From NCBI GenBank assembly GCA_002731275.1, contig PCBK01000083.1, forward strand, positions 1 to 45,956: a DNA stretch of 45,956 bases, written 5' to 3'. Below, piece by piece: positions 6,452 through 44,139 of this stretch (its first letter is position 1; every line of letters starts with the position of its first letter). Below the pieces are notes generated by a model, which did no database searches, was not told the origin of the DNA, and was given only the letters and a program-made list of their open reading frames with translations. The DNA is from Deltaproteobacteria bacterium. Lineage in GTDB: Bacteria; Myxococcota_C; UBA6777. Position numbers and translations under genes: made by a program.

Positions 6452-6460
6452 GATGACCTC

Positions 6461-11375: not shown

Positions 11376-11400
11376 GCTTCAACAAGAACGGAATCGAACG

Positions 11401-14527: not shown

Positions 14528-14590
14528 CGAGCGGATCGTGTTGCACACATTGACGAAGACAAATAGACCACACACAGAAAGGGCAAAGAC

Positions 14591-16099: not shown

Positions 16100-16116
16100 C
16101 AAACGCAGACACACAA

Positions 16117-16157
16117 GACACGAGAGTAGACAGGCACAGCCTGTCTACTCTTGTGTC
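16117..16157 (+). promoter_or_regulatory. 18-bp intercistronic hairpin between guaB and purD
   Basis: Positions 16117-16134 pair with 16140-16157 over 18 base pairs, with one G-U pair and a 5-base loop CACAG. No T-tract follows, so it is not a standard terminator. It ends ten bases before the GGGAGAAG ribosome binding site of purD. It could protect the guaB 3' end, partly block read-through, or affect purD translation. Confidence 0.8.
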
Positions 16158-16177
16158 CTGATGATGGGAGAAGAGAC

Positions 16178-17467: not shown

Positions 17468-17572
17468 CGTGGACTGTATGATTTCCCCTCCGAGCGCTTG
17501 GGCCTTGTATATTTAATGATGGGATTGCTTTTTTTTGGTGGTTGGACTACAAAACACTGACGGAAGTAAACA

Positions 17573-17612
17573 ACCCCCACCTTCGGCATAAACTTCAGGA
17601 GGGGGCTTTTTG
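17573..17612 (+). terminator. terminator between purD and purA
   Basis: CCCCC-A-CCT pairs with AGG-A-GGGGG around a 14-base loop, followed by CTTTTTG. It lies 105 bp past purD and 75 bp before the purA start. It may end the main operon, with purA having its own promoter, or act as an attenuator for purA. The mismatch and large loop make it moderate in strength. Confidence 0.7.
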
Positions 17613-17686
17613 ATTTGCGCAGTGTCGCCGATACCTCCGTGCCCAAAGAAGCGAACATGATTGCAAAGATAGAGGAGAATGTCTCA

Positions 17687-19778: not shown

Positions 19779-21220
19779 AGATTTGCTGCGAGCCTTCGAA
19801 AAGACGCTCTCTTTGGCTTTAACGCTTCGTACTCTTCTCCCTCAGGCCAAGAGTAACAGGCATCTGGCATCTGGTACCGTGCAAGGTGCGTGGTGAGCTG
19901 CTCTCTCCATTCTAATCCTTCCAACGTTTTTCCATCTTCCAACTCGACGAAGACAACAGGACGTGCACCAAATTCTACATCGGGTCGATCGACGACGAGC
20001 GCACGTATCACACCTTCTAAACGCTCAAAGGCCTGCTCGATCGTCTCGGGATGAATATTTTCTCCACCTGAGATGAACATATTGTCTTTGCGACCGATGA
20101 CTGATAGGCGGCCTTTTTCATCGACCTGACCGATATCCCCTGTTTGGAACCACCCCTGCTCATTGCGAAGGTCGTGGAGACCGTCTTTTGTGAGATACCC
20201 TCGAAAGAGCGTCTCGCCTCCTGCCCATATCTCACCATCATCGTGGAGCTTCAGCTTACGATGAGGTAACAATTGTCCCGATGTCATCCAATCTTCGTAG
20301 GGTGCACCGGGCGCAGTCGTCGTGAGTTGAGAAGAGAGCTCCGTCATCCCATACGTCGTACATAGAGGAAGTCCACACTCATGTGATTGGGCGAGAAGTT
20401 CACGTGGGACTGCGCCACCTCCGACAAGAATGGCCTTTAGGGTTGTCTTACAAGAGGCAAGCGCTTCTGGATGTTGAAGCAAACGGTAGAGCTGTGTCGC
20501 GACCATCGAGGCGTGTGTGATGTCGAGTGTGAGCGCTTCGTGAAGAGGCCTCTCTTTGTCGGTAAAGACAACTGCACCCCCTCCCCACAACGCACGCACG
20601 AGGATCGCGAGCCCTCCAACATGGTACAGAGGCAAAGACAAAAGCCAACGATCACCTGGTCCGAACGGCATGTTCTCATGTGCGCCCATTGCACTGTACA
20701 GGTGATTGTCGAGGGAGTGTAGCGCGGCTTTTGGGTGTCCTGTGCTTCCGGAGGTGAAGATAATCGTCGCATCCATCGAAGATTGGGTCTTGATGGAGTG
20801 TGCTCTTGTGTTTTTGGACGCAAAGACCTCTTCGATCACCAAAGAGGGGGTGGCCTCCCAGCTTCCTTTTGTCGCGGTGTACTGATAAGAGACAAGGGCC
20901 AGAGAGCAATTGACTTCCTTGGCGAGTTCTTGGGCGCGTTGACGTGGAAGGCGTGTGTTGATGGGGACACAAGTGATGCCCAAGCGCCAACAGGCTATCC
21001 AACAAGCGATCAGCTCCAGTGAGGTTTCACCCAACAACGCGATGCGTTGTCCCTCTCTGTATCCATGAGAGGAGAAGACCCCCGCAATACGCCGAACGTG
21101 GGCCGCGTATGCGCTGTAGCTCCAACTTGTGTTCCCATCAAAGAGCGCTTCTTCGTTGCCGAATAAGCGATCCGCGCGTTCAAGTAAACATTCCAGCTCG
21201 CGCTCCTTGTGTTTGCTCAC
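19757..21220 (-). CDS. menE: o-succinylbenzoate-CoA ligase
   Basis: An acyl-activating enzyme of 487 residues that makes OSB-CoA from OSB, CoA and ATP. Motifs: TIIFTSGSTGHPKAALHS (P-loop), LPLYHVGG, TYGMTELSSQ, GWFQTGDIG and GRKDNMFISGGENIHPETIE. The ALKPKRASFRRLA end carries the catalytic Lys region. The short length and position after menC make MenE the clear choice among related ligases. ATGA overlaps the menC stop by four bases. It is the last gene of the operon and is convergent with the GbsR-like gene. Confidence 0.95.
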   Translation of the reverse strand: MSKHKERELECLLERADRLFGNEEALFDGNTSWSYSAYAAHVRRIAGVFSSHGYREGQRIALLGETSLELIACWIACWRLGITCVPINTRLPRQRAQELAKEVNCSLALVSYQYTATKGSWEATPSLVIEEVFASKNTRAHSIKTQSSMDATIIFTSGSTGHPKAALHSLDNHLYSAMGAHENMPFGPGDRWLLSLPLYHVGGLAILVRALWGGGAVVFTDKERPLHEALTLDITHASMVATQLYRLLQHPEALASCKTTLKAILVGGGAVPRELLAQSHECGLPLCTTYGMTELSSQLTTTAPGAPYEDWMTSGQLLPHRKLKLHDDGEIWAGGETLFRGYLTKDGLHDLRNEQGWFQTGDIGQVDEKGRLSVIGRKDNMFISGGENIHPETIEQAFERLEGVIRALVVDRPDVEFGARPVVFVELEDGKTLEGLEWREQLTTHLARYQMPDACYSWPEGEEYEALKPKRASFRRLAANLHLDLKS

Positions 21221-22332
21221 CAGATCACCTCTTCCAATCGCTCGGTCCGTACACGTTGCATAGAGGCCCCTGACTTCGTCACGTCCAGTGTTCCACCTTC
21301 GACAGAGACGGGGGAATGGACGATATCTTCAGCGATATACTTGCCTGTGTCCAATCCCATCGCCATCCAGGAGGATTCAGGAAGGTAGGCCGCCATACAG
21401 GTCAAAAATCCTCGCCCTATCGCCGATTCAAACATGCTGCTGATGTTGACCACGAGCTTCGCGTCATGGGCTTTGTCAATCCACTCCATTGTACGACCGA
21501 TTCCCCCTATCCACGAAGGTTTTAGGATCAAGGCCTGGACACCACGCTCACGCAGTGAGGACATGTTTTCCCAAACAGAAACAGCCTCTTCGACGGTCTC
21601 GTCCAGGGCGATTGAGAGGCCCGTTTTTTCAGCAAACACAAAGGAAGCGTCAGGTGTCAAACAGGGCTCTTCGATGTACTCGATGTCTGCGGATGAACAA
21701 TCTTTTGCGAGTGTACACGCTTCTTCCAATGTCCAGGCTCTGTTGGCGTCCAAGCGTATGCGGATATCTGGACCGACAAGTTCGCGAAGAGACAAGATCC
21801 GTTTGACATCAACATCGATGGGGACGCGACCGACCTTCAGCTTGATGTGAGTAAATCCTCTTTTTTGTAGAGCATTCCAGCGTGCTTGTAAGTCTTCAAC
21901 ATGACCTGTTAGGAGGGCTTGGACTCGAACAAATGGTTGCGTGGCCGTGCTCCTGCCAATGGCGTTGAGGCCGACTCTTAGACTGGCATACTGCATCAAG
22001 GCCATGTCCACACCAAAGCACACAGAAGGAGGCAGAGTGTGTTGTGTTGTCAATCCAGCGACTTCTGAAAAGGTGGTGTTGTCTGTTTCCAGGATACGTG
22101 ATGCACGTTGCAGGAAGGTTTGGTTGGAGAGTAAGTCTTTGAGAGCGTCGAGGGCTGAGGCGCGATCTTCCCGATGGAATCCTGGCAGCGGAGCAATATC
22201 TCCCCAGACTTGCCTTCCATGTGTATCACTTAATCGGAGTAAAAAGCCCTGCCTTTGTTGGAGGGTTGTGTGTGCGAGGTGGAGAGGTTTTCGGAGCGGA
22301 AGTGAGTATGTATACAGACGCCATTCCAACAT
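21217..22332 (-). CDS. menC: o-succinylbenzoate synthase
   Basis: An enolase-superfamily enzyme of about 371 residues that dehydrates SHCHC to OSB. It has LKVGR with the catalytic Lys (KxK-like HIKLKVG), RLDANRAWT, IEYIEEP, LALDE-like SIALDETV and ILKPSWIGG with the opposite Lys. These give the metal-binding Asp-Glu-Asp set of the family. The start ATG overlaps the menA TGA as TGATG, typical of coupled translation; an upstream GTG is less likely. Confidence 0.93.
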   Translation of the reverse strand: MLEWRLYTYSLPLRKPLHLAHTTLQQRQGFLLRLSDTHGRQVWGDIAPLPGFHREDRASALDALKDLLSNQTFLQRASRILETDNTTFSEVAGLTTQHTLPPSVCFGVDMALMQYASLRVGLNAIGRSTATQPFVRVQALLTGHVEDLQARWNALQKRGFTHIKLKVGRVPIDVDVKRILSLRELVGPDIRIRLDANRAWTLEEACTLAKDCSSADIEYIEEPCLTPDASFVFAEKTGLSIALDETVEEAVSVWENMSSLRERGVQALILKPSWIGGIGRTMEWIDKAHDAKLVVNISSMFESAIGRGFLTCMAAYLPESSWMAMGLDTGKYIAEDIVHSPVSVEGGTLDVTKSGASMQRVRTERLEEVIW

Positions 22333-23201
22333 CAGATGACCCACAGCGCCGAGAACAAAACGCCAAAGACGAGAAGATACTTACCTGTTTGTGCGAGGGC
22401 TTCGTTGAGGATCGCGCCTTCTTCGTTGCCAAAGACGCGACGAAATGCTGGAATCAGCACGAGAAAACCGAGCAGTGAGAACATCACGTAGTAGTGGCCT
22501 TGCAACCAAAGGCTCAAGCCGACAGGGACGAGCGCCGCGATGATCAAGGACAACGCAAACTCCCAACGCGCGAAGGTCGCACCGAAACGAACGGCGAGCG
22601 TTCTCTTGCCGACCTTGACGTCTGTATGGACGTCGCGAAGATTGTTGACGGCGAGCAACGCGGTCGAGATTAAACCAGGCGCGAGGCCCGCGAGGATCGG
22701 CGCGAGATGAATACTTTGTGCCTGCACATAGTAGGTCCCACCTACAGCGACAGGGCCAAAGAAGATCAGTACAAAAACATCTCCGAGGCCAAGGTAGCCA
22801 AGGGGATACGGTCCCCCTGTATATAAAATCCCCGAAGCGATCGAGAGAACACCAATCCAAACGAGTGGCCAGCCACCACGCATCACGAGGTAGACACCAG
22901 CCAACGCCGCGAGACCAAAGACGACGATCCACGACCACTTCATCACGGCAGGTGAAACGAGTCCGGCTTGTGTCACACGTACAGGGCCGACGCGTTCTTC
23001 GTCTGCGCCCTTCAAGAAGTCGAAGTAGTCATTGGCTAAATTGGTCCCGATCTGGATCAACAAGGCCCCAACAAACGCGATGACGGCAGACAATATGTGC
23101 ATTTTGCCGTCACTGTATGCCATCGCTGTCCCCATCAACACAGGTGCCACTGCTGCCCCAAGTGTCTTGGGGCGGATCGCCATCACTATCGTTTTCAACA
23201 C
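22332..23201 (-). CDS. menA: 1,4-dihydroxy-2-naphthoate polyprenyltransferase
   Basis: A UbiA-family membrane prenyltransferase that attaches the isoprenoid tail to DHNA. The first Asp-rich motif is NLANDYFDFLKGAD and the second NNLRDVHTDVKVGKRTLAVRFG; about eight hydrophobic segments are visible. The frame is open further upstream inside menD, but GTG at 23201, with GGAG eight bases before it and four bases past the menD stop, gives the standard VLKTIVMAIRPKTL start and 289 residues. Confidence 0.93.
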   Translation of the reverse strand: MLKTIVMAIRPKTLGAAVAPVLMGTAMAYSDGKMHILSAVIAFVGALLIQIGTNLANDYFDFLKGADEERVGPVRVTQAGLVSPAVMKWSWIVVFGLAALAGVYLVMRGGWPLVWIGVLSIASGILYTGGPYPLGYLGLGDVFVLIFFGPVAVGGTYYVQAQSIHLAPILAGLAPGLISTALLAVNNLRDVHTDVKVGKRTLAVRFGATFARWEFALSLIIAALVPVGLSLWLQGHYYVMFSLLGFLVLIPAFRRVFGNEEGAILNEALAQTGKYLLVFGVLFSALWVI

Positions 23202-23205
23202 GGGT

Positions 23206-24921
23206 CTATCTCCATTCTCGGATGTGTGCGCGAAGGTTTTCGTAAAAGGCCATATTGTCATCGCGTTTGGTGATGCACTCAATCACACACGACGTCTCCC
23301 CTTCCAATGCTCGTGTATACGCATCCCGAAAGGCTTCTACTGTCTGTACTTGTGTTGTAGAGAGGCCAATGCTCTCGGCGAGAGGTGCAAACTGAAGCTC
23401 ATGGGGAGTCGTAAAATACGTATCAAACACGTCGGGCTGTTTGGCGATGGGGAGGTGTCCAAAAATCCCTCCTCCGCTGTTGTTCAAGACGACAACGATC
23501 ACAGGATAGGGGGCGTGCTTGCATAGATACAGAGAGTTGAGGTCGTGTAGAAGGGATAAATCACCGATTAGCAAGGTCGTCATGCGCTGGTGACCAAAGG
23601 CAAAACCCACCGCAGAAGCGACCAGTCCGTCTATTCCACTCGCGCCACGATTGGCACCGATCAAGCAAGCCTTTGAGGTGCGACCAAAACGATCCATGTC
23701 CCTGATTGGCATACTGTTTCCAATCAAGCAAGCGTGCTCTTCGGGCAGCATTTGTGTCAGGGCGTTGACAATGGACGGCTCACTGAAGGGGGAGTCTGCC
23801 ATGAGAGCGTGACACGTTTTGTCGTACAACTCTTGAAGATCATTCCACTTGGTACGCCACTCATAACGTTGATCACCGAGCTCGCTGATCGGCAGGTATG
23901 TAGACCACTGGCGCAGCGTCTCAGGGATATCTGCCACAATACGAAGGGTGACCTTTGCGTCGGGGTCTTCTCGATCAGGAGTCGATTGAAGCTGAATGAT
24001 AAGGGGCGTGTCTTCTTTGAGCCAGGAGAGATAGGCATTTGAGACGACAGGTCCGCCGATATGTAAGATGACATCTGGCTTCATCTTCGCAGCGAGGGGC
24101 GATGAGAGGAGTTGGTCGAAACGTGGGATATGCCCGCCCCAATCGGGACCCAATTGCATTCCAGAGCCGATATCGCTCAAGACAGGCCATCCGAGACGTT
24201 GTACAAACGCGCGCACCTCTTGTTTTGGCATCGAAGACGGCATGCGACCGAGGACGACGAGACCGCGTTCGATGTGTTCGAGGCGCTTCACGCTCTCTTC
24301 GACGTCTGTCGGTTGTGTGAGTTTGGGACGTGGCCAGCTTGTGTGTGGTGTTTGTCCTTCGGAGAGAAGCACTTCTCGATCGATGTCTACTGGGTCGAGA
24401 GGTTTGCGAAAGTGAAAGTTCAGATGGACAGGTCCAGGTGAGAGTCCGACGCTCTGGAAGTGGGCTTGATCAACACTTGAACGTAGCCAATCGAGAGATA
24501 TGTCCTTTGAGGGTGTGGGGATATCCTGGAACCAGCGTGTGTACGAGCCAAAGATACGGGCTTGTTCGATCGTCTGGTTGGCACCTGTTCCGAGTAACTC
24601 ATGGGGGCGATCTGCGGAGAAGATCAGCATCGGGACATGATCGACGGAGGCTTCGACGACGGCGGGCAGGTAATTGGCAACAGCCGTTCCTGATGTGCAG
24701 ACAAGGACAGCAGGTTTTCCCGTGGCCCTTGCGTAGCCAAGGGCCACATAAGCGGCTGCACGTTCATCGATACAGAGCTGCTTGTGAATGCGTGTATCCT
24801 TTGCGAGTGCAGCGGTCAATGGTGTGGAGCGAGAGCCAGGAGAGATACATGCAAATGAGACACCACAAGCGACCAACTCGTCGACAACGACTGTTCCCCA
24901 TATCGTGTTGTACATCGCCAT
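23206..24921 (-). CDS. menD: SEPHCHC synthase
   Basis: A thiamine-diphosphate enzyme of 571 residues that joins 2-oxoglutarate and isochorismate. Motifs: VACGVSFACISPGSRSTPLT, the ERAAAYVALGYARATGKPAVLVCTSGTAVANYLPAV region with the ThDP-activating Glu, and IGDLSLLHDLNSL…VIVVVLNNSGGGIFGHLP, the ThDP/Mg site. The longer frame upstream lies in menF. ATG at 24921 follows GGGGACGTG; 24915 is an alternative. It sits ten bases after the menF stop. Confidence 0.95.
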   Translation of the reverse strand: MAMYNTIWGTVVVDELVACGVSFACISPGSRSTPLTAALAKDTRIHKQLCIDERAAAYVALGYARATGKPAVLVCTSGTAVANYLPAVVEASVDHVPMLIFSADRPHELLGTGANQTIEQARIFGSYTRWFQDIPTPSKDISLDWLRSSVDQAHFQSVGLSPGPVHLNFHFRKPLDPVDIDREVLLSEGQTPHTSWPRPKLTQPTDVEESVKRLEHIERGLVVLGRMPSSMPKQEVRAFVQRLGWPVLSDIGSGMQLGPDWGGHIPRFDQLLSSPLAAKMKPDVILHIGGPVVSNAYLSWLKEDTPLIIQLQSTPDREDPDAKVTLRIVADIPETLRQWSTYLPISELGDQRYEWRTKWNDLQELYDKTCHALMADSPFSEPSIVNALTQMLPEEHACLIGNSMPIRDMDRFGRTSKACLIGANRGASGIDGLVASAVGFAFGHQRMTTLLIGDLSLLHDLNSLYLCKHAPYPVIVVVLNNSGGGIFGHLPIAKQPDVFDTYFTTPHELQFAPLAESIGLSTTQVQTVEAFRDAYTRALEGETSCVIECITKRDDNMAFYENLRAHIREWR

Positions 24922-24931
24922 CACGTCCCCA

Positions 24932-26308
24932 TCAGGAAAAGAGTTCGACAAACGGAGTGAGCTTCTTCTCTGTCTCGACCCACTCGTGAGTTGGATCTGA
25001 GCCGGGGACGATACCTGCGCCAGCATAAAGAGAGACTTGCTTTCCTTGCACCAATGCTGAGCGAATCCCCACAACAAATTCAGCGGCGTCTGCACCAAAC
25101 CAACCGACAGGAGCTGCATACCAACCGCGATCGAAGGGTTCAAGTTGCTGGATTAACTCCAAAGCCTGCCCACGTGGACGTCCGCCAACTGCAGGTGTCG
25201 GATGGAGCGTTTGCAAGATCGTAAAATCATCGACATCTTCCTTGATCTCACCATGAATGGTTGAGAGTAGATGTTGAATATGGCGGAGTTTTCGCAAGGC
25301 GAGTTGCGTTTCAACTTTGTAGGTGTGACACAGCTCTGCAAAGTGCTCTGTGAGGACTTCGAGCACGATCTGGTGCTCGTGGACTTCTTTCTCTGTCTCC
25401 AACAACTCACGCCCGAGCGCTTCGTCTTCTTCGGGCGTCTTACCACGACTGCGTGTTCCTGCTAACGCTTCGCTCTCAACGATTTGACCGTGACGACGGA
25501 ACAAAAGCTCTGGAGTTGCGCCTAGGAAGGTGTTCTTTGTGTCGATCTGGAACAAAAAGGAGTATGTCCCTTCCGCGCGCTTTTTGAGGGCATGTAAGAG
25601 TTGTGTGGGGGAGACAGGTGTCTGGAAGCGAAGCGCCAATCGCCTCGCGAGGACGATCTTTTGTAGCGCGCTCTCTTCAAAGCTTTTGAGCGCGTGCTGA
25701 AGCTGTGTTTCCCAACCATCTTGTTCAGGAACTTCAACTCGCTCAAGGGCTTGGAGAGGATCGTTTGCCGTCGCTTGAAGGTACGATTCAGGGTGTGCAT
25801 CCCACGAAAAGGCATCGACTTCTTGGAGGAGTGTGTCTTTTTGGCGAGCAAGCCCTTCTGCTGTAGATGGTTGAAGGAGGGCCTGGAAGACGAAGAGATG
25901 CTGATCTTTGTCTCGTCGAAAGGCAAAGCGAGGCGCGACAAAGTGGCCTGTACCAAAGTCAGCCCACTCAGGCGCAGGTGCAACGGAGGGGGCAAAGCGC
26001 GCACCTCCGTAGTAATGAACTGGCAAAGAAGATGTTGAGAGGCGTTGCTTTGCTTGGCGCAAAGCAGCGAGGAGGGCACGGTGTGAGTCGGCAGAGAGAA
26101 CATCTGCGGCGCCGATCCCAGCGACTTCGGTGTGACCATCACGGCTCGACCAATAGAAGGCCTGCATGTGGGGATGTGTCTGTAACCAGCGAAGGGGAGT
26201 CGTCTCAGGGAGCGGCAGGTGGATCTGTATCCACTGCCCATCTTGATCGAGCGCGTCGCACCATCCTCGCCAATGTGTTTCGATTGTATGACGTAAAGAG
26301 TCCGTCAT
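24932..26308 (-). CDS. menF: isochorismate synthase
   Basis: A 458-residue chorismate-using enzyme. The C-terminal domain has KIVLARRLALRF, FLFQIDTKNTFLGATPELLFRR, ESEALAGTRSRG, EHQIVLEVL, HLLSTIHGEIK, LHPTPAVGGRPRG and YAAPVGWFGADAAEFVVGIRSALV, all family hallmarks. It turns chorismate into isochorismate, the entry to menaquinone (a siderophore role is excluded by context). The ATG at 26308 has GGAG eight bases upstream; the TTG at 26329 overlaps menG. Confidence 0.95.
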   Translation of the reverse strand: MTDSLRHTIETHWRGWCDALDQDGQWIQIHLPLPETTPLRWLQTHPHMQAFYWSSRDGHTEVAGIGAADVLSADSHRALLAALRQAKQRLSTSSLPVHYYGGARFAPSVAPAPEWADFGTGHFVAPRFAFRRDKDQHLFVFQALLQPSTAEGLARQKDTLLQEVDAFSWDAHPESYLQATANDPLQALERVEVPEQDGWETQLQHALKSFEESALQKIVLARRLALRFQTPVSPTQLLHALKKRAEGTYSFLFQIDTKNTFLGATPELLFRRHGQIVESEALAGTRSRGKTPEEDEALGRELLETEKEVHEHQIVLEVLTEHFAELCHTYKVETQLALRKLRHIQHLLSTIHGEIKEDVDDFTILQTLHPTPAVGGRPRGQALELIQQLEPFDRGWYAAPVGWFGADAAEFVVGIRSALVQGKQVSLYAGAGIVPGSDPTHEWVETEKKLTPFVELFS

Positions 26309-26325
26309 ACGCACACTCCACCCAC

Positions 26326-27057
26326 TCAACGTTTTACTCCCTGGTAGATATTTGCGATGCCGAAGGTCAGAGGGGTAAAGGAGACTTCTCCAAAGCCAGC
26401 CTCTTTCATCAAGGTACAGAATGCCTCACCTTGCGCAAAAGCTTCGGCGCTTTGGTTGAGATAGGCATATGCGCTCTTGTCACCAGAGACCCATCCCCCG
26501 ACTGTTGGGAGAATATGTCGAAAATATAGGGAGTAACCGGCACGCACAACGGGGTTTGTGGGCATCGCGAACTCCATGATCAAGGCTTTTCCGCCTGGAC
26601 GCAGGACGCGATGGATATCGGAGAGCGCCTTGGGAACATCTTCGACGTTTCTGATCCCAAAAGACATGGTCATCGCGTCGAAGCTGTTGTCTTCGGCGGG
26701 CAGGTCCATTGCATCGCCTGTCACCATTGAGATGTCCTGTCGAAGCGCGAGGCCAGGGATCTTCTCGCGACCGATCGCGAGCATTCCTTCGGAGAGATCC
26801 ATCCCTGTCGCCTTCTTGATACCAGGACGTTCACGGCAAACGGCGATCAATTGGTCGCCAGTGCCTGTCGCGAGATCGAGATAATCTTTGGCGTCGACAG
26901 GGACCATGCGTGCGAGCTTTTTGCGCCAGATAATATCGATACCACCGGATAGTGTGTGATTAAGCAGATCGTATGTTGTCGCGATCCGGTCAAACATCTG
27001 CCACGTCTTGAATGTAGGTCCATCGGACCACTCACGTTTCTCAGAATTGCTCTTCAT
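26326..27057 (-). CDS. ubiE: demethylmenaquinone methyltransferase
   Basis: A class I SAM methyltransferase of 243 residues (UbiE/MenG). MFDRIATTYDLLNHTLSGGIDIIWRKKL is the family N-terminus. DLATGTGDQL is the SAM-binding loop, followed by GMDLSEGMLAIGR, DAMDLPAEDNSFDAMTMSFGIRNVEDVPKAL and FRHILPTVGGWVSGDKSAYAYL. It performs the last step of menaquinone synthesis. Its place within the men operon suggests a menaquinone role. AGGTGAG lies five bases before the ATG; a GTG nine bases further up is less likely. Confidence 0.94.
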   Translation of the reverse strand: MKSNSEKREWSDGPTFKTWQMFDRIATTYDLLNHTLSGGIDIIWRKKLARMVPVDAKDYLDLATGTGDQLIAVCRERPGIKKATGMDLSEGMLAIGREKIPGLALRQDISMVTGDAMDLPAEDNSFDAMTMSFGIRNVEDVPKALSDIHRVLRPGGKALIMEFAMPTNPVVRAGYSLYFRHILPTVGGWVSGDKSAYAYLNQSAEAFAQGEAFCTLMKEAGFGEVSFTPLTFGIANIYQGVKR

Positions 27058-27079
27058 CGGGCTCACCTATGTGTTGTGA

Positions 27080-28159
27080 TCAAATGTGTTCTTCGCGATT
27101 GGGGACACTTTGTCCGTGAAATGGGCTCGTCTGTGGCTTCCCTGTGACGACATCTCGGTCCACTGCGAGAGCGATGCGACGGACTTGTCGAATCATCGAC
27201 GCGAGTTGTTCCGGTCGCAGACTTTGTGCGCCGTCGGAGAGCGCTTCTTCTGGACGAGGGTGCATCTCGACGAGCAAGCCATCTGCACCTGCTGCGATCG
27301 CACAACGTGCGATCGCATCGACGTATTTTGAGTCTCCTACTGCGTGACTTGGGTCGGCAACAACAGGGAGGTGAGTCGTATCCTTTAGGATGGGCAACAG
27401 GTTGGCGTCAAAGGTGTTCCGTGAAACGCGTGTAAAGGTACGGATACCTCGCTCACACAACATCACCTGCTCATTGCCACCTTGGAGGATGTATTCGGCT
27501 GCAGAGACAAACTCGTTGAGTGTACAATGCATCGCGCGTTTGAGCAGGACGGGGAGTCGGACACGTCCGAGCGCGCGTAGAAGAGAGAAGTTTTGCATGT
27601 TGCGAGTACCGACCTGAAGGACATCGGCGTACTCAACAATCCAGGGAAGGGTCTCTGTATCCATGACCTCGGTCACGATGGGGAGTCCGGTTTTTTCTCG
27701 TGCTTCGGCGAGCCACTGGAGTCCCTGGATCCCGTGTCCTTGGAAGCTGTGGGGAGATGTTCGTGGTTTGTAAGCACCACCACGTAAAGCGATTCCACCG
27801 GCTTCTTTGACTGCAAATGCTGACTCGATGATCTGTTCACGACTTTCGACAGCGCATGGTCCGGCGATGACGCCGATATCGGCACTTCCAACTTGCCATT
27901 CGCCGAGCGAGAAGGTGGAGTTTTCTTCGTGGTATTGTCGGCTGACAAGTGGGTAAGAGATTGTGGTCTCTTCGATGCGCGCGATGCCTTGTGTGCCGCT
28001 GAGATCTTTGAGTTGTGTAGGGGTTAAGTCCGCTGTGATGATCCAGCGCAACCGCTGCGGGTCTGTCGGTGTCGTGTCTTCCGACAACAAGCCGACTTCG
28101 TGGAGGATGGTCTCACGTTGGCTTTGGGGACACTCTGGTGTCAATTCTAGAACGAACAT
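27080..28159 (-). CDS. aroF: DAHP synthase, type I-beta with N-terminal regulatory domain
   Basis: 3-Deoxy-D-arabino-heptulosonate 7-phosphate synthase starts the shikimate pathway from PEP and erythrose 4-phosphate. Residues 1-70 form a small ferredoxin-like domain, as in the Thermotoga enzyme, where it mediates feedback control. The barrel has IAGPCAVESREQI, LRGGAYKPRTSPHSFQG, TEVMDTE, LQVGTRNMQNFSLLRALG, VLLKRAM, LCERGIRTF and VVADPSHAVG. In this operon it should feed chorismate into MenF. AAGGAGG is six bases before the start. The symbol follows common usage and other aro names are possible. Confidence 0.9.
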   Translation of the reverse strand: MFVLELTPECPQSQRETILHEVGLLSEDTTPTDPQRLRWIITADLTPTQLKDLSGTQGIARIEETTISYPLVSRQYHEENSTFSLGEWQVGSADIGVIAGPCAVESREQIIESAFAVKEAGGIALRGGAYKPRTSPHSFQGHGIQGLQWLAEAREKTGLPIVTEVMDTETLPWIVEYADVLQVGTRNMQNFSLLRALGRVRLPVLLKRAMHCTLNEFVSAAEYILQGGNEQVMLCERGIRTFTRVSRNTFDANLLPILKDTTHLPVVADPSHAVGDSKYVDAIARCAIAAGADGLLVEMHPRPEEALSDGAQSLRPEQLASMIRQVRRIALAVDRDVVTGKPQTSPFHGQSVPNREEHI

Positions 28160-36111: not shown

Positions 36112-36963
36112 TCAGCAGCAACCTTCTGTCTTCGTCTCATTTTCCGTATTCTTTTTTCCATCCGACGGCCTTAGAGCCTGGAAGGAGCTATTCTTTGTAT
36201 CTGTGATAAGCATATATCCAGGAGAATGTGTGATCGCGAAGGGAGGTTTGGCGTGTGCGATTGCGAGCTGTGGGGTCACACCACATGCCCAAAAAACCGG
36301 CGTCTCACCTGTGTACGTATGGACGGAGTCTCCAAAGTCTGGACACGTCAAAGACTTGATACCTATATCTTCTGGAGCACCTGCATGTACAGGGCCACCG
36401 TGGACTTGAGGGAATTGTTCCGTGACGTGATAGGCCTCTTCTACACGCGCGTTGGGTATGGGACGCATACTCACAACCATCTTGCCTTGGAATGCCCCTA
36501 CGCCTTCACAGGGGATATTTGTGATGTACATCGGTACATTACGACCTTCTTCGATGTGCCTGATTGGGAGCCCTGTATCTGAGAGAGCCTGCTCAAATGT
36601 AAAACTACATCCTATCAAAAAGCTCACAAGGTCATCCCGCCAGATATCCTGAAGCGTTCCAACTTCTGTCCAAGTTCCACCCTGAAAGAGCCTGTATTTT
36701 CCGAGATCTCTTCTCACATCGGCGGTCTTAGATAGTTCTTGTAGACGTGATTGACCCCGTGGAAGCTCCTCCAAAAGTGGACATGGTTTCGGGTTGCGTT
36801 GGCAGAATGTACGGAAATCATTGGTATATTCAGCAGGTAAGATCACGAGATTGACCTGTGTATAACCTGGACACAGACCTGCTGTTGGTCGTCGCCAGCG
36901 CCCTTCTCTGATCGCCTCTCTCGCCTCCTCTGGTGTCCAAGAAGAAGCTTCACCCTCTATCAT
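36112..36963 (-). CDS. D-glutamate cyclase family protein (DUF1445)
   Basis: A 283-residue member of the family once called DUF1445 (YcsI-like, 'putative hydro-lyase'), now named for D-glutamate cyclase. Motifs: GYTQVNLVILP, CPLLEELPRG, SFLIGCSFTFEQAL, RNVPMYITNIPC, GKMVVSMRPIP, HGGPVHAGAPEDIGI, PVFWACGVTPQLAIAHAKPPFAITHSPGYMLITD. It corresponds to the N-terminal half of animal mitochondrial DGLUCY, which turns D-Glu into 5-oxo-D-proline. The start at 36963 overlaps the murD stop as ATGA with AAGGAG eight bases upstream; an ATG at 36987 is less likely. It is the last gene of the murL-murD operon. The C-terminal KKNTENETKTEGCC tail is unusual. Confidence 0.9.
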   Translation of the reverse strand: MIEGEASSWTPEEAREAIREGRWRRPTAGLCPGYTQVNLVILPAEYTNDFRTFCQRNPKPCPLLEELPRGQSRLQELSKTADVRRDLGKYRLFQGGTWTEVGTLQDIWRDDLVSFLIGCSFTFEQALSDTGLPIRHIEEGRNVPMYITNIPCEGVGAFQGKMVVSMRPIPNARVEEAYHVTEQFPQVHGGPVHAGAPEDIGIKSLTCPDFGDSVHTYTGETPVFWACGVTPQLAIAHAKPPFAITHSPGYMLITDTKNSSFQALRPSDGKKNTENETKTEGCC

Positions 36964-38339
36964 GATTGTGTCTCCTTCTTGGCGCATCCTGTGAGCTTCG
37001 CAAAGACCTCTCCGCGCTCCTGGAAATTCTTGAATTGGTGGTAACTTGGCGCTGCTGGAGATAACAAGACGACACCTCCCTCATCTGTACAAGAGAGCGC
37101 TTTGGTGACAGCCTCTTCGAGGCTTTGTGTACGCTCCAACAAAAAGGGAACGCCACCTTCGAGTGCTGCCCCACGATGTAAGAGGTCTTCTGCGATGCGT
37201 GAACCTGTGTCAGGCATCGTGATCACGGCATGGATGGGCGTAGATAACAATGATTCGACAAGGGGCGTTACATCAAGCTGTCTATCATATCCCCCGACGA
37301 GCAATGTTATCGGCCTGTGACGATAAGCATCCATCGCTGCGATCGCTGATTGGGGCGTCGTTGAGATGCTGTCGTCGATAAATAAACGCCCATCACGTTC
37401 ACCGATAGGCATCAACCGATGGGCCAATCCACGAAATGAAGGGAGTGATTGAACAGCTTCTTGCCAGGGGATAGAGAGCGCCTCAAGGACGGACAAGGCC
37501 GCACATACATTTGCCCAATTATGAGCGCCTCGCAAGGACAGCAAAGATCCTGGTACTGCGAGCATGTCACCCTTATAGATCCCGTCTTCTCGAACGTGAA
37601 AACCTTCTTCCGTCATATAGTAATATGGATTTGTCCAAACATTGGGCATTTGGCTCGTTTGGGCGTCTTGTCCGTTGAGGATGGTGATCCCGTCTGAACG
37701 CATATGGTTGAAAAGTTTGGTCTTGTCGCGAAAGTATGACTCCACATCACCATGCCAATTCAGATGCTCGGGATACAAGTTCAATAATACACCGATATCC
37801 GGTGCGCCTGTAAAATCGGATGTCTGGTAGCTCGACAACTCCACCACAAAGAAATCTGGTGGCTCAGGTGATTGGAAGTGCTGCAACAACGGCACTCCGA
37901 TGTTTCCGGCAAGTGTGACGGAGTGTCCTGCTGCTTCCAGCAAAAACGCGATCAAGGAAGATGTCGTACTCTTGCCCTTTGTACCGGTGACACAGATCGT
38001 CTTCTGTGTTGGGTGGTTGGCAAACCAGATATTCGTCGCGGATGTAAAGACCGTCCCTTGCTCCTTTGCGGCTTCGACGGCTGGAATATATGGTGTGATT
38101 CCCGGTGACTTGATCACGACCTCAAAGTCTGAAAGTGACGACAACACACGTGCGCCTGTGAGCACCTCACAATGTTCCGAAGACAGGCGCGGATGTGCCG
38201 ACATATCAATCTCTTTGTCGTTGAGGATGGTTACCTCAAGTGAGGGAAGTTTCTCCTGTAGCACCTCAAGGGTCGCCTGCCCCTCCCTACCAAAACCCCA
38301 GATCGCGACACGACGTTGTGATAATTCAGAGAGCAGCAT
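36960..38339 (-). CDS. murD: UDP-N-acetylmuramoyl-alanine:glutamate ligase, probably L-Glu-using (MurD2 type)
   Basis: A 459-residue Mur ligase with RVAIWGFGREGQATLEVL, the ATP loop ICVTGTKGKSTTSSLI (about 115-130), VVELSSYQTSDF, NLYPEHLNWHGDVESYFRDKTKLF and the closing LLSPAAPSYHQFKNFQERGEVF. Canonical MurD adds D-Glu to UDP-MurNAc-L-Ala. The overlapping murL gene implies that this one adds L-Glu, as Xanthomonas MurD2 does; sequence alone does not prove this. The ATG at 38339 has GAGGAA seven bases upstream and overlaps the murL stop by 14 bases; a TTG 27 bases upstream is less likely. Confidence 0.9.
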   Translation of the reverse strand: MLLSELSQRRVAIWGFGREGQATLEVLQEKLPSLEVTILNDKEIDMSAHPRLSSEHCEVLTGARVLSSLSDFEVVIKSPGITPYIPAVEAAKEQGTVFTSATNIWFANHPTQKTICVTGTKGKSTTSSLIAFLLEAAGHSVTLAGNIGVPLLQHFQSPEPPDFFVVELSSYQTSDFTGAPDIGVLLNLYPEHLNWHGDVESYFRDKTKLFNHMRSDGITILNGQDAQTSQMPNVWTNPYYYMTEEGFHVREDGIYKGDMLAVPGSLLSLRGAHNWANVCAALSVLEALSIPWQEAVQSLPSFRGLAHRLMPIGERDGRLFIDDSISTTPQSAIAAMDAYRHRPITLLVGGYDRQLDVTPLVESLLSTPIHAVITMPDTGSRIAEDLLHRGAALEGGVPFLLERTQSLEEAVTKALSCTDEGGVVLLSPAAPSYHQFKNFQERGEVFAKLTGCAKKETQS

Positions 38340-39690
38340 GGAATCGTTCCTCAAAGTAAGGCTCAAGGTGGTGTGCTTGAGAAGGTGTCAGCATACGTTC
38401 AATCAACGCAGATGGATCTTCAACCTGCGGTAGAACCTGCTCAATAAAGCGCTTGACCAGGAGAGCATCCTTCCACTCATCACGTGTCGCGAGCTGACAA
38501 AATGCCGCCACACACTCCTCGACCTCTCCGACACACTCAAAAGGTTTGTGACCTGATACGCCGATTAACTCGTCAAATCCTTCCTGTTGCGTAGGCATGT
38601 CGAGCAGATTGGCGCCGTATATCGCGAGCAGAGCTTCCTTGGCTAAGGCCGGCGCGATCGCCAAAAACGTAAAGCGACACTTCGGACAATCGAGACACCA
38701 TCTCGTCTCAGGCGCCGTCTTCACCAAACGAAAAGCTTTGTTGCAGCTCGTGAAGACACTGTGATACTGAGGATATCGTGCAAATAGCTGTGCGATATGT
38801 AATTCTGAGAGCGGACGCAGGAACGAAAAGTACCGAAACGTACCAAGCCCTTCTTTGGACCAAAACGCATGCAGATCACGCTCGAAGGTCAGACTCTTGC
38901 TGTACTGGTGGTTGACCTCAAAGCCATCTTCTCGCTCAAAGTTCCCTACGTTGGCCGAACGCTCATTGGAAAGCGCGGCACGATCAAAACCATACAGGAC
39001 GGAGGAGACCGCGAGCACAAACGCGATGATCGCTGAAATGGGTACGTGGCCGTTGTAAGCCCCCTGCTTGTTCAACGCAAACAGATGGGGATCCAGCGCC
39101 CTCTTCACGATGATATGCTCGACACCTGATACCCCTGCGACGTCGACGATTGGTTTGTGTGCTCCGATCGAGAACAACACCATCGGCTCATCTGCCTGCT
39201 TCAGTGCCTCTATTGTTACCAGCGAATCCTTACCACCTCCGACTGGAACGGCCGTCTTCCGTGGTAATGGACATGACACGACGTCTCTCTCAAGCCCTTC
39301 TTCAAAGGGAAAAGAGAGCGTTTGGTGGAGATTCAAGCCATTGATGTGTGCAAATTCACCGAGACCATGAAGGTAAATCTTCTCGAAGAAGGACGCCGCA
39401 TCTTTTGTCAAAGGTCCCGTCTCAACGACGATATTCTTGGGGACAGCCGCTTTGTAGTAACTGATCCCGGCCATCAAATGAAGCTGTGCCAGGCTCCGAT
39501 CAAGTGCAGCACGACGAGCATCATCAAGCGGAAGCATCGAACCTTCAAAGGTGAATCTCTCTGTGAAGGTGTGCTGATCATCAAAAGCATAGTGAAGTGA
39601 GGCGATAGCGTGCGTTTCGTCGAAGTCATAGGAGACAAAGCGGAACGTCTCGACGCTCGCAGGATCAAATGAAGGCATCTCTTGTGCCAT
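38326..39690 (-). CDS. murL: UDP-MurNAc-L-Ala-L-Glu epimerase
   Basis: A 454-residue protein I assign to MurL. It inverts the terminal L-Glu of UDP-MurNAc-L-Ala-L-Glu using ATP, giving the D-Glu peptide precursor. Visible landmarks are the PP-loop-like AVPVGGGKDSLVTIEAL (about 147-163), VLFSIGAHKPI, GHVPISAIIAFVLAVSSVLYGFDRAALSNERSANVGN (to residue 250), NHQYSKSLTFE and WCLDCPKC (331-338), possibly a metal site. It is overlapped by murD and preceded by four bases after the GLUCM_C-type gene. AGAGGA lies nine bases before the start. The name comes from my recollection of the Xanthomonas MurD2-MurL pair. Confidence 0.88.
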   Translation of the reverse strand: MAQEMPSFDPASVETFRFVSYDFDETHAIASLHYAFDDQHTFTERFTFEGSMLPLDDARRAALDRSLAQLHLMAGISYYKAAVPKNIVVETGPLTKDAASFFEKIYLHGLGEFAHINGLNLHQTLSFPFEEGLERDVVSCPLPRKTAVPVGGGKDSLVTIEALKQADEPMVLFSIGAHKPIVDVAGVSGVEHIIVKRALDPHLFALNKQGAYNGHVPISAIIAFVLAVSSVLYGFDRAALSNERSANVGNFEREDGFEVNHQYSKSLTFERDLHAFWSKEGLGTFRYFSFLRPLSELHIAQLFARYPQYHSVFTSCNKAFRLVKTAPETRWCLDCPKCRFTFLAIAPALAKEALLAIYGANLLDMPTQQEGFDELIGVSGHKPFECVGEVEECVAAFCQLATRDEWKDALLVKRFIEQVLPQVEDPSALIERMLTPSQAHHLEPYFEERFHAAL

Positions 39691-39694
39691 ACGC

Positions 39695-40972
39695 TTATTC
39701 CTCTTGGTTGGAAGATCCTTTACAGATCATGTACATCTCGTCCATTATCGGTGCATGAACAGCCTCCCAATCGAGTCCATCAACACAAAGCCTTTGTTCA
39801 CCGCTGACTCCATCAACAGCCGGACCTTCATACACCATCCGTTCCAATATACGCTCACTGACCTCTCGTGTTAAATTTCCGGCGATCTTCTCACCCTCTC
39901 CACACATCAAGGCGATCGCTGCCGCAAGCGCTGCACCGCCCCAATTCGAGACACCACACACCATCAACGCGTCGGCCTCCACACAACAATGAATCGTTTC
40001 TCCGTGAGGGACGTACGCAGCGACTTCTTCTCTGTCCAGGCATCCCATCCCCAACTCGTTGCCACCGTCGCCAATACCGACACGATACCAGCCATATTCA
40101 GACGTGAACAGATGATGCAACGGGGTTGTAAATGCGGATATATCCTCCCCTCTCATATTCCGACAATGGCCGTGCTGACCTGGTCCCACACGTTCAATCG
40201 ATATGACATGGGTGAGAGGGGACGCAAAAGATGACCAATGCGAAGAATACGGATTTGGGGAGGGCGAGTTTCCACTCGCCCCTGATTGTCGGGCTTCGCT
40301 TGCCCCTGATTGTCGGGCTTCGCTTGCCCCTGGCTGCATCGCTTCGCTTGCCCCTGATTGTCGCGCTTCGCTTGCCCCTGACTGCCTCGCTTCGCTTGCC
40401 CCTGACTGTCGGGCTTCGTTCGCCTCTGACTGCCTCGCTTCGTTTACCCTTGGCTGTCGCGCTTCGTTTACCCTTGGCTGTCGCGCTTCGCTTGCCTCTG
40501 ACTGCTGGACCGCTGACTGTTGCGCCTCTGACTGTCGCGCTTCGCTTTCCCTTGGCTCTTCGCGTGTTATCACGTCAATGGGGATGCTCTCCAGAAGCCC
40601 TGTTGCCGCAAGGCTGGCTTTCAATGTGCCTTCGCAATGGGTGTCTGTGACAAGGCGCACTTTCATCCCCAGCGCATGAAGGCTTGTCGCGAGCACAACG
40701 GCACCAAGGGGACCATCTGTCTCTGCCGCGCCTTGTATGATCTTTCCGTGCAGTGTGGCTTTTGCGTGTGGGATAAAGAATCCCGTGATGATCGCGATGT
40801 GGGGAGAGACTGTGCGGACGATATGTTCTGCTGCCTGACGTAATTGTCCTCTTGTCTTCTTAGCGGCCCAAGACATCCCACGGTTCTCTGTGTGGCGATG
40901 ACAGAGGGTTTCAAGTTGCGCAATGCGCTCTGTGATGTCGGGAGTACAGGTGTCTTTGTATGACGACTTCAT
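39695..40972 (-). CDS. D-glutamate cyclase C-terminal-domain protein (DUF4392) with repeat insert
   Basis: A 425-residue protein of the DUF4392/GLUCM_C family. HIAIITGFFIPHAKATLHGKIIQGAAETDGPLGAVVLA (58-95) and VISIERVGPGQHGHCRNMRGEDISAFTTPLHHLF…YRVGIGDGGNELGMG (256-310) are the two conserved blocks. This family forms the C-terminal half of animal D-glutamate cyclase; bacterial members are often stand-alone. Residues 140-235 between the blocks are an in-frame low-complexity insert of about a dozen octapeptides like SEARQSGA. AAGGAG is placed six to seven bases before the ATG. It is the first gene of the murL-murD-DUF1445 operon. Whether it works alone or with the DUF1445 protein is unknown. 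Confidence 0.88.
   Translation of the reverse strand: MKSSYKDTCTPDITERIAQLETLCHRHTENRGMSWAAKKTRGQLRQAAEHIVRTVSPHIAIITGFFIPHAKATLHGKIIQGAAETDGPLGAVVLATSLHALGMKVRLVTDTHCEGTLKASLAATGLLESIPIDVITREEPRESEARQSEAQQSAVQQSEASEARQPRVNEARQPRVNEARQSEANEARQSGASEARQSGASEARQSGASEAMQPGASEARQSGASEARQSGASGNSPSPNPYSSHWSSFASPLTHVISIERVGPGQHGHCRNMRGEDISAFTTPLHHLFTSEYGWYRVGIGDGGNELGMGCLDREEVAAYVPHGETIHCCVEADALMVCGVSNWGGAALAAAIALMCGEGEKIAGNLTREVSERILERMVYEGPAVDGVSGEQRLCVDGLDWEAVHAPIMDEMYMICKGSSNQEE
40262..40555. repeat. in-frame 24-bp minisatellite
   Basis: About a dozen tandem units like CGCTTGCCCCTGATTGTCGG plus GCTT lie inside the DUF4392 gene. They are more uniform at the low-coordinate end and more diverged at the other. 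A unit length of 24 keeps the reading frame, so copy number can change without breaking the gene. At its low-coordinate edge is the hairpin GGGCGAGT-TTCC-ACTCGCCC (40262-40281), with the same arm and loop sizes as the repeat array at 5149-5325. Confidence 0.9.
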
Positions 40973-41167: not shown

Positions 41168-42019
41168 ATGACAAAGGATAAGAAGAGCCTCCTCAACCAA
41201 TTCACAGAAGGCGTCAACAAAGGCATCAAACAAACAAGTGAAGCGGCCCAAATGGTCGGTGAAACTGTTATTGAGAGCGCACAGGCTGTTGGGAACACCA
41301 TTAACGACGGTGTCAACTCTGCCGGTACAACCGTCGAGAGAGGCGCACAGGCCATCTCCGAAAGCGCAAAACTGCTCGGTGAAACCGTCGTCGACGGGGT
41401 ACAGCGGATCGGAAAGGTGCTCTCTGATGGGGGGAACATCTTGCTCGAAGATATCAACGAAGCAGGTGCGTTTGTCGCCGATCAGGTGAACGGCAGTATC
41501 GGTGTTGTTCGGGATGGAGTGTACTACGTTGGTGGCAAAGCTGTCGAAGGGACCGTCGTCGTCAAAGACGGTGTCTTGAGTGTTGGCGAAACCATCGTGG
41601 GGAGCGTGATCAACACGAGCCGCTTTGTCACCGATAAGGCGTACAGGGACAGCGAAGGTATCCCATGGCTCAAAGAAGTGATCGAGACCAACAGGGAGAT
41701 CATCGCCTATCAAATCCAACAAAATCAACGCGCCATGGAGCTTCTCTACTACGCATCCCTTGGCAAAGAGCTCAACGAAGACGAACTTGAGATCGTCAGC
41801 AAACAGATCACAGACATGACCAAACTCGTCCCCGTCCTGGCGATCTTCTTACTCCCCGGTGGGACCGTGTTGCTCCCCATCCTAGCCAAACTCCTGCCTT
41901 GGGACATGATCCCCGATCTCAAACCACCCAAAGACGTCAACCTCGCTCCCCCCGAAGCGACACCCACCCCCGAAGCCGCTGCAGAGAGCCACCCCAACGC
42001 CACTGTCAAAGACGAATAG
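41168..42019 (+). CDS. membrane protein with amphipathic repeats and LETM1-like C-terminus
   Basis: A 283-residue protein. Residues 8-160 are repeats of roughly 11 residues with Gly/Ala/Val/Glu (AQMVGETVIESAQAVGNTINDG, AISESAKLLGETVVDGV), like amphipathic or LEA-type helices. Residues 220-251 (LVPVLAIFLLPGGTVLLPILAKLLPWDMIPDL) resemble the hydrophobic hairpin of LETM1-like proteins. A Pro/Glu-rich tail follows. No signal peptide is present. AAGGA sits seven bases before the start. It is divergent from the D-glutamate operon. The LETM1 link is tentative and the function unknown. Confidence 0.6.
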   Translation: MTKDKKSLLNQFTEGVNKGIKQTSEAAQMVGETVIESAQAVGNTINDGVNSAGTTVERGAQAISESAKLLGETVVDGVQRIGKVLSDGGNILLEDINEAGAFVADQVNGSIGVVRDGVYYVGGKAVEGTVVVKDGVLSVGETIVGSVINTSRFVTDKAYRDSEGIPWLKEVIETNREIIAYQIQQNQRAMELLYYASLGKELNEDELEIVSKQITDMTKLVPVLAIFLLPGGTVLLPILAKLLPWDMIPDLKPPKDVNLAPPEATPTPEAAAESHPNATVKDE

Positions 42020-42198: not shown

Positions 42199-43998
42199 CT
42201 ACAAACTGAAGCCTCGGCGCTTTAAGTAGAAATGAAGAGCACTTGAGGTCGCGTAGTAGAGGTCATTCTCAGGTTCAAATTGAAAGACCCCCAAGCGCTC
42301 CACCAACGTCTCCAGCTCGATCGCTGAACACTCCAATTTCTTCGTCAACATATCACGTAGTGGCGACCACTTCGCTTGCATCCGAAAATCATCATCGCTC
42401 TCATTGTACAGATGAAGATATGTCAACAGATCGTGGAAGAGTTCTAGCTGCTCATTCTCCCGTAACTGCTTCATCTTTTGTTGATCCAGCTCCTGGAAAC
42501 GTTCGGCGAGGGTCTTCACAAAACGCTCCATCCAGGAACCAAGCAACATCTTCTCCTCGAAGACATCGTGGGAGACGACCGCGACAGTCACTTCATCGAG
42601 TGCTTTCACTGTTGCGGTGCGACGGCGCTCCAAGAACACAGCGGTCTCGCCAAAGACATCCCCAGGTCCCATATCACGGATGACAACGTCCCTGTTCTCT
42701 GAGCGTTTGAAGACACGACAACGCCCTCTTATAATGATATAGGCCTCTTCACCATGCTCTCCTTCGCGTACGAGCACCGAACCCGCCTCAAATTGACGCA
42801 CTGGTAAATCACCGCCACCACGGATGAAGTCATCGATATCTCGCTTAAGGCTCTCGACACTGTTGTATCGCTCTTCGGGTTTGTAGGAGAGCGCCTTTTG
42901 CGCGATCTTGGACAGCCCTTTGGGAATATAGACATCTGAGACGCGCTCTTCGGCGGGCTCGATATCTGCAGACTGGATCTTGCTCAAGATCTCGTACAAT
43001 TCGCCTAGATAAGGCGGGTTTCCTGTTAACATTTCGTACAAGATGGCACCAAGCGCGAAGATATCCGTGCGCTCATCGAATTGCTCAATCGCGCCTTTGG
43101 CTTGCTCTGGTGACATGTAATTCCACGTCCCAAGGACCGGGTTTTTGTCTTCCTGGACATCTTCTGTGATCCGGACAGGTTCTTCGACGGCCTTGTACTT
43201 TTGTGCGGGAAGTTCCTGGTATGTCCGTGCGATCCCCCAATCCATGACATAGACCTGTCCGTGAGATGCGAGCATGACATTCGAAGGTTTGAGATCGAGA
43301 TGCAACACGCCGCGATTATGGGCGAAGGAGATGGCGTCACAGATCTTCATGAAGATCTGAAGGGCCTCGTACAAACACCGTGCTGAGCCGATCTGGTACT
43401 CACGTGAGTGGATGTAGGCCTTGAGTGTTTTGCCTTTTACCCACTTCATCGCAAAAAACGGGATCTCTTGTTTGTTGTGGGCGAATTCGTAGACGGGGAC
43501 GATATGTGGGTGTTCAAGTTGACCGGAGATCTGGGCTTCATGGACGAAGCGTTGGGCGTGGATCGACTCATCGACGAGTTTTTCGTCCAGGACTTTGAGC
43601 GCAACAGGTCGGAACAATGTGCGATCCAGCGCTTTATGGATCAAGCTCATGCCACCACGTGCGAGGATACCAAATTCTTGATATCGTTTACCAAACTCAT
43701 CGACATCGGCGGATTGTATGGATTCGTAGAGTTTGGAGCTGACCATCTCTGTGGGGCCATCGTCTTCTTGGAGTTCAAGCTCGGTCATCGGCGCGCCATC
43801 GTCCTGAAAATAACCGACAGGGGTCATCGGGACAAAGGGAGAATCTTCGACGATATCGATCGGTCGCATCGCGGTCATCGAGTCTGGACGTTTGATCTCC
43901 AAAGGGTCTTGGTGGGCGGGTCCCACAAAGGTGGGATCTTCTGGGACATCAGGCTGCGGCTGGGACGAATCTTTGGGTTCTTTGGGGTCACTCGTCAT
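42199..43998 (-). CDS. Ser/Thr protein kinase fused to a cyclic-nucleotide-binding domain
   Basis: A 599-residue protein. An acidic, Pro-rich N-terminal part (1-105) precedes a Hanks-type kinase (about 106-392). ILARGGMSLIHKA is the Gly loop, VALKVL has the ATP Lys135, HLDLKPSN (233-240) replaces the usual HRDLKPxN, MDWG (252-255) replaces DFG, and GTWNYMSPEQ is the activation segment end. A cNMP-binding domain (398-485) has GDVFGETAVFLERRRTATV, the phosphate-binding cassette. The rest is helical. No membrane segment is present. GGAGGAG is nine bases before the ATG. It likely couples second-messenger binding to phosphorylation. Confidence 0.92.
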   Translation of the reverse strand: MTSDPKEPKDSSQPQPDVPEDPTFVGPAHQDPLEIKRPDSMTAMRPIDIVEDSPFVPMTPVGYFQDDGAPMTELELQEDDGPTEMVSSKLYESIQSADVDEFGKRYQEFGILARGGMSLIHKALDRTLFRPVALKVLDEKLVDESIHAQRFVHEAQISGQLEHPHIVPVYEFAHNKQEIPFFAMKWVKGKTLKAYIHSREYQIGSARCLYEALQIFMKICDAISFAHNRGVLHLDLKPSNVMLASHGQVYVMDWGIARTYQELPAQKYKAVEEPVRITEDVQEDKNPVLGTWNYMSPEQAKGAIEQFDERTDIFALGAILYEMLTGNPPYLGELYEILSKIQSADIEPAEERVSDVYIPKGLSKIAQKALSYKPEERYNSVESLKRDIDDFIRGGGDLPVRQFEAGSVLVREGEHGEEAYIIIRGRCRVFKRSENRDVVIRDMGPGDVFGETAVFLERRRTATVKALDEVTVAVVSHDVFEEKMLLGSWMERFVKTLAERFQELDQQKMKQLRENEQLELFHDLLTYLHLYNESDDDFRMQAKWSPLRDMLTKKLECSAIELETLVERLGVFQFEPENDLYYATSSALHFYLKRRGFSL

Positions 43999-44139
43999 AC
44001 GAGGATGCTCCTCCAACAACAAAAAATTGTGCAAGAATTTTGCGCTTCACAATCAACTCGACCTATAGTCGCTGTTAACGACGATCCTGTCAAATGACAG
44101 GCTCCAAAGGGATGATTTCACACCAAAAGGGAGTGTTCC

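Follow-up and report, generated by a model that had tools for sequence, protein, structure and literature searches.

Why should a bacterial operon for the D-glutamate (D-Glu) of the cell wall also encode the two domains that make up the D-glutamate cyclase of animal mitochondria? This question is raised by a contig of 45,956 nt, PCBK01000083.1, from the genome assembly GCA_002731275.1 of Deltaproteobacteria bacterium (Myxococcota_C; UBA6777), which was analyzed at its full length and is called the window below. On its minus strand, four genes form an operon with the transcription order DUF4392, MurL, MurD, and DUF1445. We consider it probable that this operon joins the synthesis of D-Glu on the peptidoglycan precursor to a module for the disposal or salvage of D-Glu as 5-oxoproline. 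The original prediction, made from the DNA alone, held that D-Glu is made only on the precursor and that free D-Glu, from wall turnover or from prey, is removed by a two-subunit cyclase, or else that the cyclase proteins play some undescribed part in the cell wall. The genes of the operon are as follows.

39695–40972, minus strand: DUF4392 / GLUCM-like_C protein of 425 aa, encoded at the head of the operon (PF14336, 240 bits)
38326–39690, minus strand: MurL (NF041275, E = 8e−148), with a predicted QueC-like PP-loop core and a Cys4 motif (C316, C332, C335, C338)
36960–38339, minus strand: MurD2-type ligase (TIGR01087, 323 bits); start at ATG 38339, with TTG 38366 also possible
36112–36963, minus strand: DUF1445 / D-Glu_cyclase-family protein (UPF0317, "putative hydro-lyase"; PF07286, 218 bits; NF003969, 382 bits); start at ATG 36963, with ATG 36987 also possible

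The four open reading frames, their spacing, and their family assignments all held up in the ORF analysis and the domain searches. The DUF4392 and MurL genes are separated by 4 bp, MurL and MurD overlap by 14 nt from ATG 38339 (41 nt from TTG 38366), and MurD and DUF1445 overlap by 4 nt from ATG 36963 (28 nt from ATG 36987). Shine-Dalgarno-like motifs resembling GAGG or AGGAG were found upstream of the starts at 40972 (AGGAG), 39690, 38339, and 36963, and none was found before TTG 38366. Because such motifs precede the internal ATGs at 38339 and 36963, the 4-bp gap and the 14- and 4-nt overlaps are retained here. The genome comprises 10.75 Mb in 200 contigs, with a completeness of 94.65% and a contamination of 5.5%. 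The tetranucleotide composition of the contig correlated with that of most other sampled stretches of its own genome at r = 0.93–0.94 (lower, 0.78, for one stretch, L053), versus only 0.73–0.79 for relatives of the same family. A foreign or contaminating contig is therefore an unlikely source of the operon.

The operon MurD exceeded the TIGR01087 (murD) cut-off of 212 bits, and its alignment gave E, R, P, Y, and I at the positions of Escherichia coli D182, K348, A414, L416, and K319; the MurDs of the same family of bacteria have N, K, A, F, and K at these positions. The MurL-linked MurDs of Desulfobacterota, Planctomycetota, and Parcubacteria bins match the operon MurD at the positions of D182, K348, A414, and K319. 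Ogasawara and Dairi described the positions that control chirality in MurD and MurD2, reporting that the double change E197D/R358K turns MurD2 into a D-Glu ligase and that K319T makes E. coli MurD accept L-Glu (PMC8788868). Glu197 and Arg358, to which the L-Glu specificity of Xanthomonas oryzae MurD2 is assigned, correspond to E and R at the aligned sites of the operon MurD. Judged by these residues, which switch MurD to L-Glu, the operon enzyme is a MurD2. The locus thus resembles the MurD2/MurL pair of X. oryzae (XOO_1320/XOO_1319; PMC8788868) in that MurL adjoins MurD2, the E, R, and P residues are shared, and the genome has no MurI above cut-off. It differs in having Y where Xanthomonas has F, in its divergent MurL (492 versus 700 bits), and in the DUF4392 and DUF1445 genes that flank MurL and MurD, neither of which lies in the annotated neighborhood of Xanthomonas sacchari murL.

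MurL matched NF041275 over 445 of 447 positions. Since its 492 bits fall under the curated 700-bit equivalog cut-off of this model, which is named for Xanthomonadales, it is regarded as a divergent MurL homologue and not as a member of the Xanthomonadales equivalog. No Pfam family matched it even at an E-value of 10, and no sequence relative was found in the PDB. The GGGKD and CxxCxxC motifs were invariant across 23 MurL homologues; in the operon protein the PP-loop motif reads GGGKDS, and its four cysteines are also invariant. The AlphaFold model (mean predicted local distance difference test score, 93.5) has a PP-loop core, and its best VIA-align match was QueC (2pg3; Z = 13.1, 200 residues, root-mean-square deviation 3.6), followed by the QueC-like Cap9 (Z = 12.8) and Bacillus subtilis QueC (Z = 12.6), and then by matches of Z ≤ 9.3. 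GGGKDS and the four cysteines are consistent with a PP-loop that binds nucleotides and with a Cys4 site like that of QueC. QueC is a carboxylate-activating enzyme. The predicted fold would thus suit the adenylate intermediate that Ogasawara and Dairi proposed for MurL, which releases AMP (PMC8788868), as a resemblance of fold and not as proof of mechanism. MurL homologues with adjacent MurD-like genes also occur in Gracilibacteria, Bacteroidales, and Lachnospiraceae bins (L024, L026, L028, L029, L030), groups that are not named in the published distribution of MurL.

A genome search for murI and a second murD had been set beforehand as one of the refuting tests, and it found neither above the cut-offs. 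The best match to the MurI model TIGR00067, a TIGR00035-type racemase, reached 45.5 bits against a cut-off of 146.65, and the operon MurD was the only one above its own cut-off, the remaining Mur ligases being MurC, a MurE-MurF fusion, and Mpl. The only strong PF01177 match, C135, was rejected as a MurI because it fits TIGR00035 and aspartate-racemase models and scores 46 bits against TIGR00067. No D-amino-acid transaminase exceeded its cut-off in the genome either; its four class IV aminotransferases are two branched-chain enzymes, one PabB-type fusion, and C95 (297 aa), which matched no model above cut-off. Very probably, this bacterium obtains D-Glu solely by ligating L-Glu to the precursor and epimerizing it there with MurL, subject to the 94.65% completeness of the genome. 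This part of the original prediction is strongly supported. All four genomes of the same family encode MurI and a canonical MurD, none of the four encodes MurL, and PF07286 and PF14336 were both lacking in the three tested. Given the MurD2 residues, the lack of MurI, and the state of these relatives, the lineage has probably swapped MurI and MurD for MurL and MurD2.

The DUF4392 protein far exceeded the PF14336 cut-off (27.9 bits), and the DUF1445 protein likewise exceeded that of PF07286 (25 bits) and was close to the solved UPF0317 structures 3db9 and 2pif (E about 1e−80). By these family matches, they are homologues of the C-terminal and the N-terminal domains, respectively, of the animal D-glutamate cyclase. 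In animals, the protein in which the two are fused (9030617O03Rik / C14orf159) cyclizes D-Glu to 5-oxo-D-proline (PMC5339696). The operon resembles it in holding DUF1445 and DUF4392 in one unit and in keeping the six metal ligands of DUF4392; here, however, the domains are two separate proteins, whose genes are the first and the last of a cell-wall operon. The six ligands (E84, D86, E260, D302, E306, D398) are those of TON_0340 of Thermococcus onnurineus (PDB 5GL4; PMC5132392), a homologue (E = 2.7e−19) of the same family with the same metal site, though an archaeal stand-alone protein. One peculiarity was found within the DUF4392 gene.

40278–40551, minus strand: 24-bp tandem repeat, 11.2 copies (Tandem Repeats Finder)

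The repeat encodes a low-complexity, EARQSGAS-rich insert of about 95 residues that interrupts the DUF4392 domain between its halves and is lacking in a Planctomycetota homologue aligned with it (L010).

That homologous neighborhoods would be conserved was borne out only in part. MurL is absent from the four closest relatives, as described above, and no genome other than the present one was seen to carry all four genes, whereas the DUF4392-MurL-MurD2 core recurs, in the same order and with overlaps of 4 and 29 nt, in the Planctomycetota isolate OFTM357, where DUF1445 is on a different contig. The two MurL-linked DUF4392 proteins are sister branches (support 89/86) in a tree of 29. In the planctomycete phylum, PF14336 was found in 28 of 392 genomes; all 28 also had PF07286, versus 1 of 20 PF14336-negative genomes of the same draw. 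Linkage does not account for this co-occurrence, because the two genes are usually unlinked, lying approximately 350–3,454 kb apart in the 11 genomes that have both on one large contig. A general link between MurL and the cyclase families was rejected, since PF14336 was present in just one (G061) of the 22 other genomes with MurL and PF07286 in two (G061 and G069). The genome G125 (L091, 6091–7881) encodes a fusion of DUF4392 with a MurD-like N-terminal domain and part of a MurD-like middle domain. Its P-loop Lys is replaced by Arg, it has no C-terminal domain, and a canonical MurD is encoded elsewhere, so it was rejected as a working MurD; it is possibly a pseudo-MurD that binds UDP-N-acetylmuramic acid (UDP-MurNAc).

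DUF1445 is further tied to 5-oxoproline metabolism. In 9 of the 28 genomes (L150–L154, L165–L168), it forms the C-terminus of a 5-oxoprolinase-type protein, either Hydantoinase B or full Hydantoinase A/B, and in the genome G465, a 5-oxoprolinase-type protein lies near it. Four Pseudoalteromonas megaplasmids carry the order GH3 (glycoside hydrolase family 3) beta-N-acetylhexosaminidase (NagZ-like), DUF1445, PxpA, DUF4392, and class IV aminotransferase; the one such aminotransferase scanned best matched D-amino-acid transaminase models, under their cut-offs. YcsI of B. subtilis, which we take to be a DUF1445 protein, provides a further example. Its gene is located in the pxpABC operon, arranged as pxpA-ycsG-ycsI-pxpBC (PMC10448178), and the B. 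subtilis control gave a PF07286 match but, unlike the present genome, none to PF14336. Taken together, these co-occurrences, fusions, and operons link DUF1445 and DUF4392 with one another as well as with 5-oxoproline and the cell wall. Two other settings were also noted. In the MurL-bearing Desulfococcaceae HSG9 (L157, 2708–6981), DUF1445 adjoins a tripartite ATP-independent periplasmic (TRAP) transporter (DctP, DctM), which suggests that an acidic substrate is taken up. Plasmid-borne DUF4392 genes (L170, L171, L173) adjoin genes of alanine-racemase-like or Asp/Glu-racemase-family proteins and of amino-acid transporters, and DUF4392 genes on rhizobial and other plasmids adjoin racemases and RidA; some members may therefore use other D-amino acids, and not all need act on D-Glu.

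On the reading that we favor, MurD2 would attach L-Glu to the precursor and MurL would epimerize it there in a direction set by ATP, so that the cell would need no free D-Glu and would have no MurI for making or unmaking it. Free D-Glu from wall turnover would be converted to 5-oxoproline by the DUF1445 and DUF4392 proteins, jointly or in sequence, much as by the fused animal enzyme, and the 5-oxoproline would either leave the cell or be opened again to glutamate, at the expense of ATP, by 5-oxoprolinase, the fusion partner of DUF1445 elsewhere. Removal of free D-Glu, as originally predicted, is well supported by comparative genomics (the 28 of 28 co-occurrence, the nine fusions, and the Pseudoalteromonas operon). 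The two-subunit cyclase was not established, because archaeal DUF4392 occurs without DUF1445 (PMC5132392) and B. subtilis has PF07286 without PF14336. No evidence was found for prey as a source of D-Glu. More tentatively, and with somewhat less than even confidence, we propose that DUF1445 and DUF4392, along with an ATP-dependent 5-oxoprolinase, make up a bacterial salvage route, not described before, that leads from D-Glu to L-Glu via 5-oxoproline. Where MurL makes D-Glu on the precursor and there alone, this route would replace the reverse MurI reaction. Searches of the open-licence literature turned up no publication that brings these families together.

Several points weigh against the favored reading. 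We know of no bacterial DUF1445 or DUF4392 protein that has shown D-Glu cyclase activity, and TON_0340 is, to our knowledge, the only stand-alone DUF4392 protein to have been assayed. It is reported to be a weak Mn-dependent phosphatase, most active on AMP, and its activity was very low, with a kcat/KM of 190 per M per s (PMC5132392); given this activity and the archaeal DUF4392 proteins that lack a DUF1445 partner, it would be unsafe to assert that the family as a whole works as an obligate two-subunit enzyme. The four genes were seen together in this genome only, and the scarcity of PF14336 among MurL genomes indicates that MurL does not need DUF4392. The Fisher test of the planctomycete co-occurrence (p = 1.7e−12) uses counts that ignore phylogeny. 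No 5-oxoprolinase was noticed in the window, the genome not having been searched for one, which also sets this locus apart from the B. subtilis operon. Furthermore, the incompleteness and the 5.5% contamination of the assembly, together with the unclassed C95, could conceal another source of D-Glu.

Among the alternatives, the one that fares best is sequential action, in which one domain cyclizes D-Glu to 5-oxo-D-proline and the other racemizes 5-oxoproline; together with 5-oxoprolinase, they would turn D-Glu into L-Glu while consuming ATP. Such an inversion step would be required, because 5-oxoprolinase is known for 5-oxo-L-proline. The fusion of DUF1445 to full 5-oxoprolinase and its position beside PxpA in Pseudoalteromonas favor this scheme, as does the existence of each domain alone (PF07286 in B. 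subtilis; archaeal DUF4392, PMC5132392), which would suit separate enzymes. However, the animal fusion shows no racemase activity on glutamate and yields 5-oxo-D-proline (PMC5339696), and we consider the scheme unlikely. Less likely still is a role on the precursor. DUF4392 would then take part in, or control, the formation of UDP-MurNAc-L-Ala-Glu, perhaps by removing phosphate from a by-product with the help of Mn or by quality control, and D-Glu cyclization would be incidental. The position of DUF4392 immediately upstream of MurL in two phyla and its fusion to a degenerate MurD in G125, with the canonical MurD encoded elsewhere, are in keeping with such a role, and TON_0340 weakly dephosphorylates AMP (PMC5132392), which MurL releases (PMC8788868). 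Nevertheless, the TON_0340 activity is very low, its small active-site cavity (PMC5132392) suits a small substrate, and the DUF1445/5-oxoprolinase fusions and the strict co-occurrence of the two families would be left unexplained. That unrelated amino-acid genes merely share a transcription unit by chance is very improbable: most MurL loci do lack both cyclase families and the full set was seen in this genome only, but the DUF4392-MurL-MurD2 core recurs in another phylum in the same order with overlapping genes, its DUF4392 proteins are sister branches, and one metabolite is common to all four families.

Elsewhere in the window, the gene divergent from the operon (41168–42019, plus strand) weakly matched the LETM1 ribosome-binding domain (24.7 bits, versus a Pfam cut-off of 25.3). 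The protein encoded at 42199–44034 (minus strand) combines a serine/threonine protein kinase domain (PF00069) with one that binds cyclic nucleotides (PF00027), a pairing also found in eukaryotic cyclic-nucleotide-dependent kinases. From translations read by eye, positions 5366–18979 appear to hold a purine biosynthesis cluster, with perhaps separate genes for inosine monophosphate cyclohydrolase and 5-aminoimidazole-4-carboxamide ribonucleotide transformylase rather than PurH, and positions 19757–28159 a menaquinone biosynthesis cluster.

With this locus, the known range of the MurL route comes to include a phylum whose members have large genomes, and the predicted QueC-like PP-loop fold would give a structural reason for the adenylation proposed for MurL, an enzyme that has itself been proposed as a narrow-spectrum antibiotic target. 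It also connects the little-understood families DUF1445 and DUF4392, fused as D-glutamate cyclase in animals, with the D-Glu metabolism of the bacterial cell wall and with 5-oxoprolinase, and this link offers a testable bacterial function and origin for the animal cyclase. If the salvage proposal is true, these organisms would run a one-way D-Glu economy, in which MurL converts L- to D-Glu on the precursor and the cyclase route returns D- to L-Glu.

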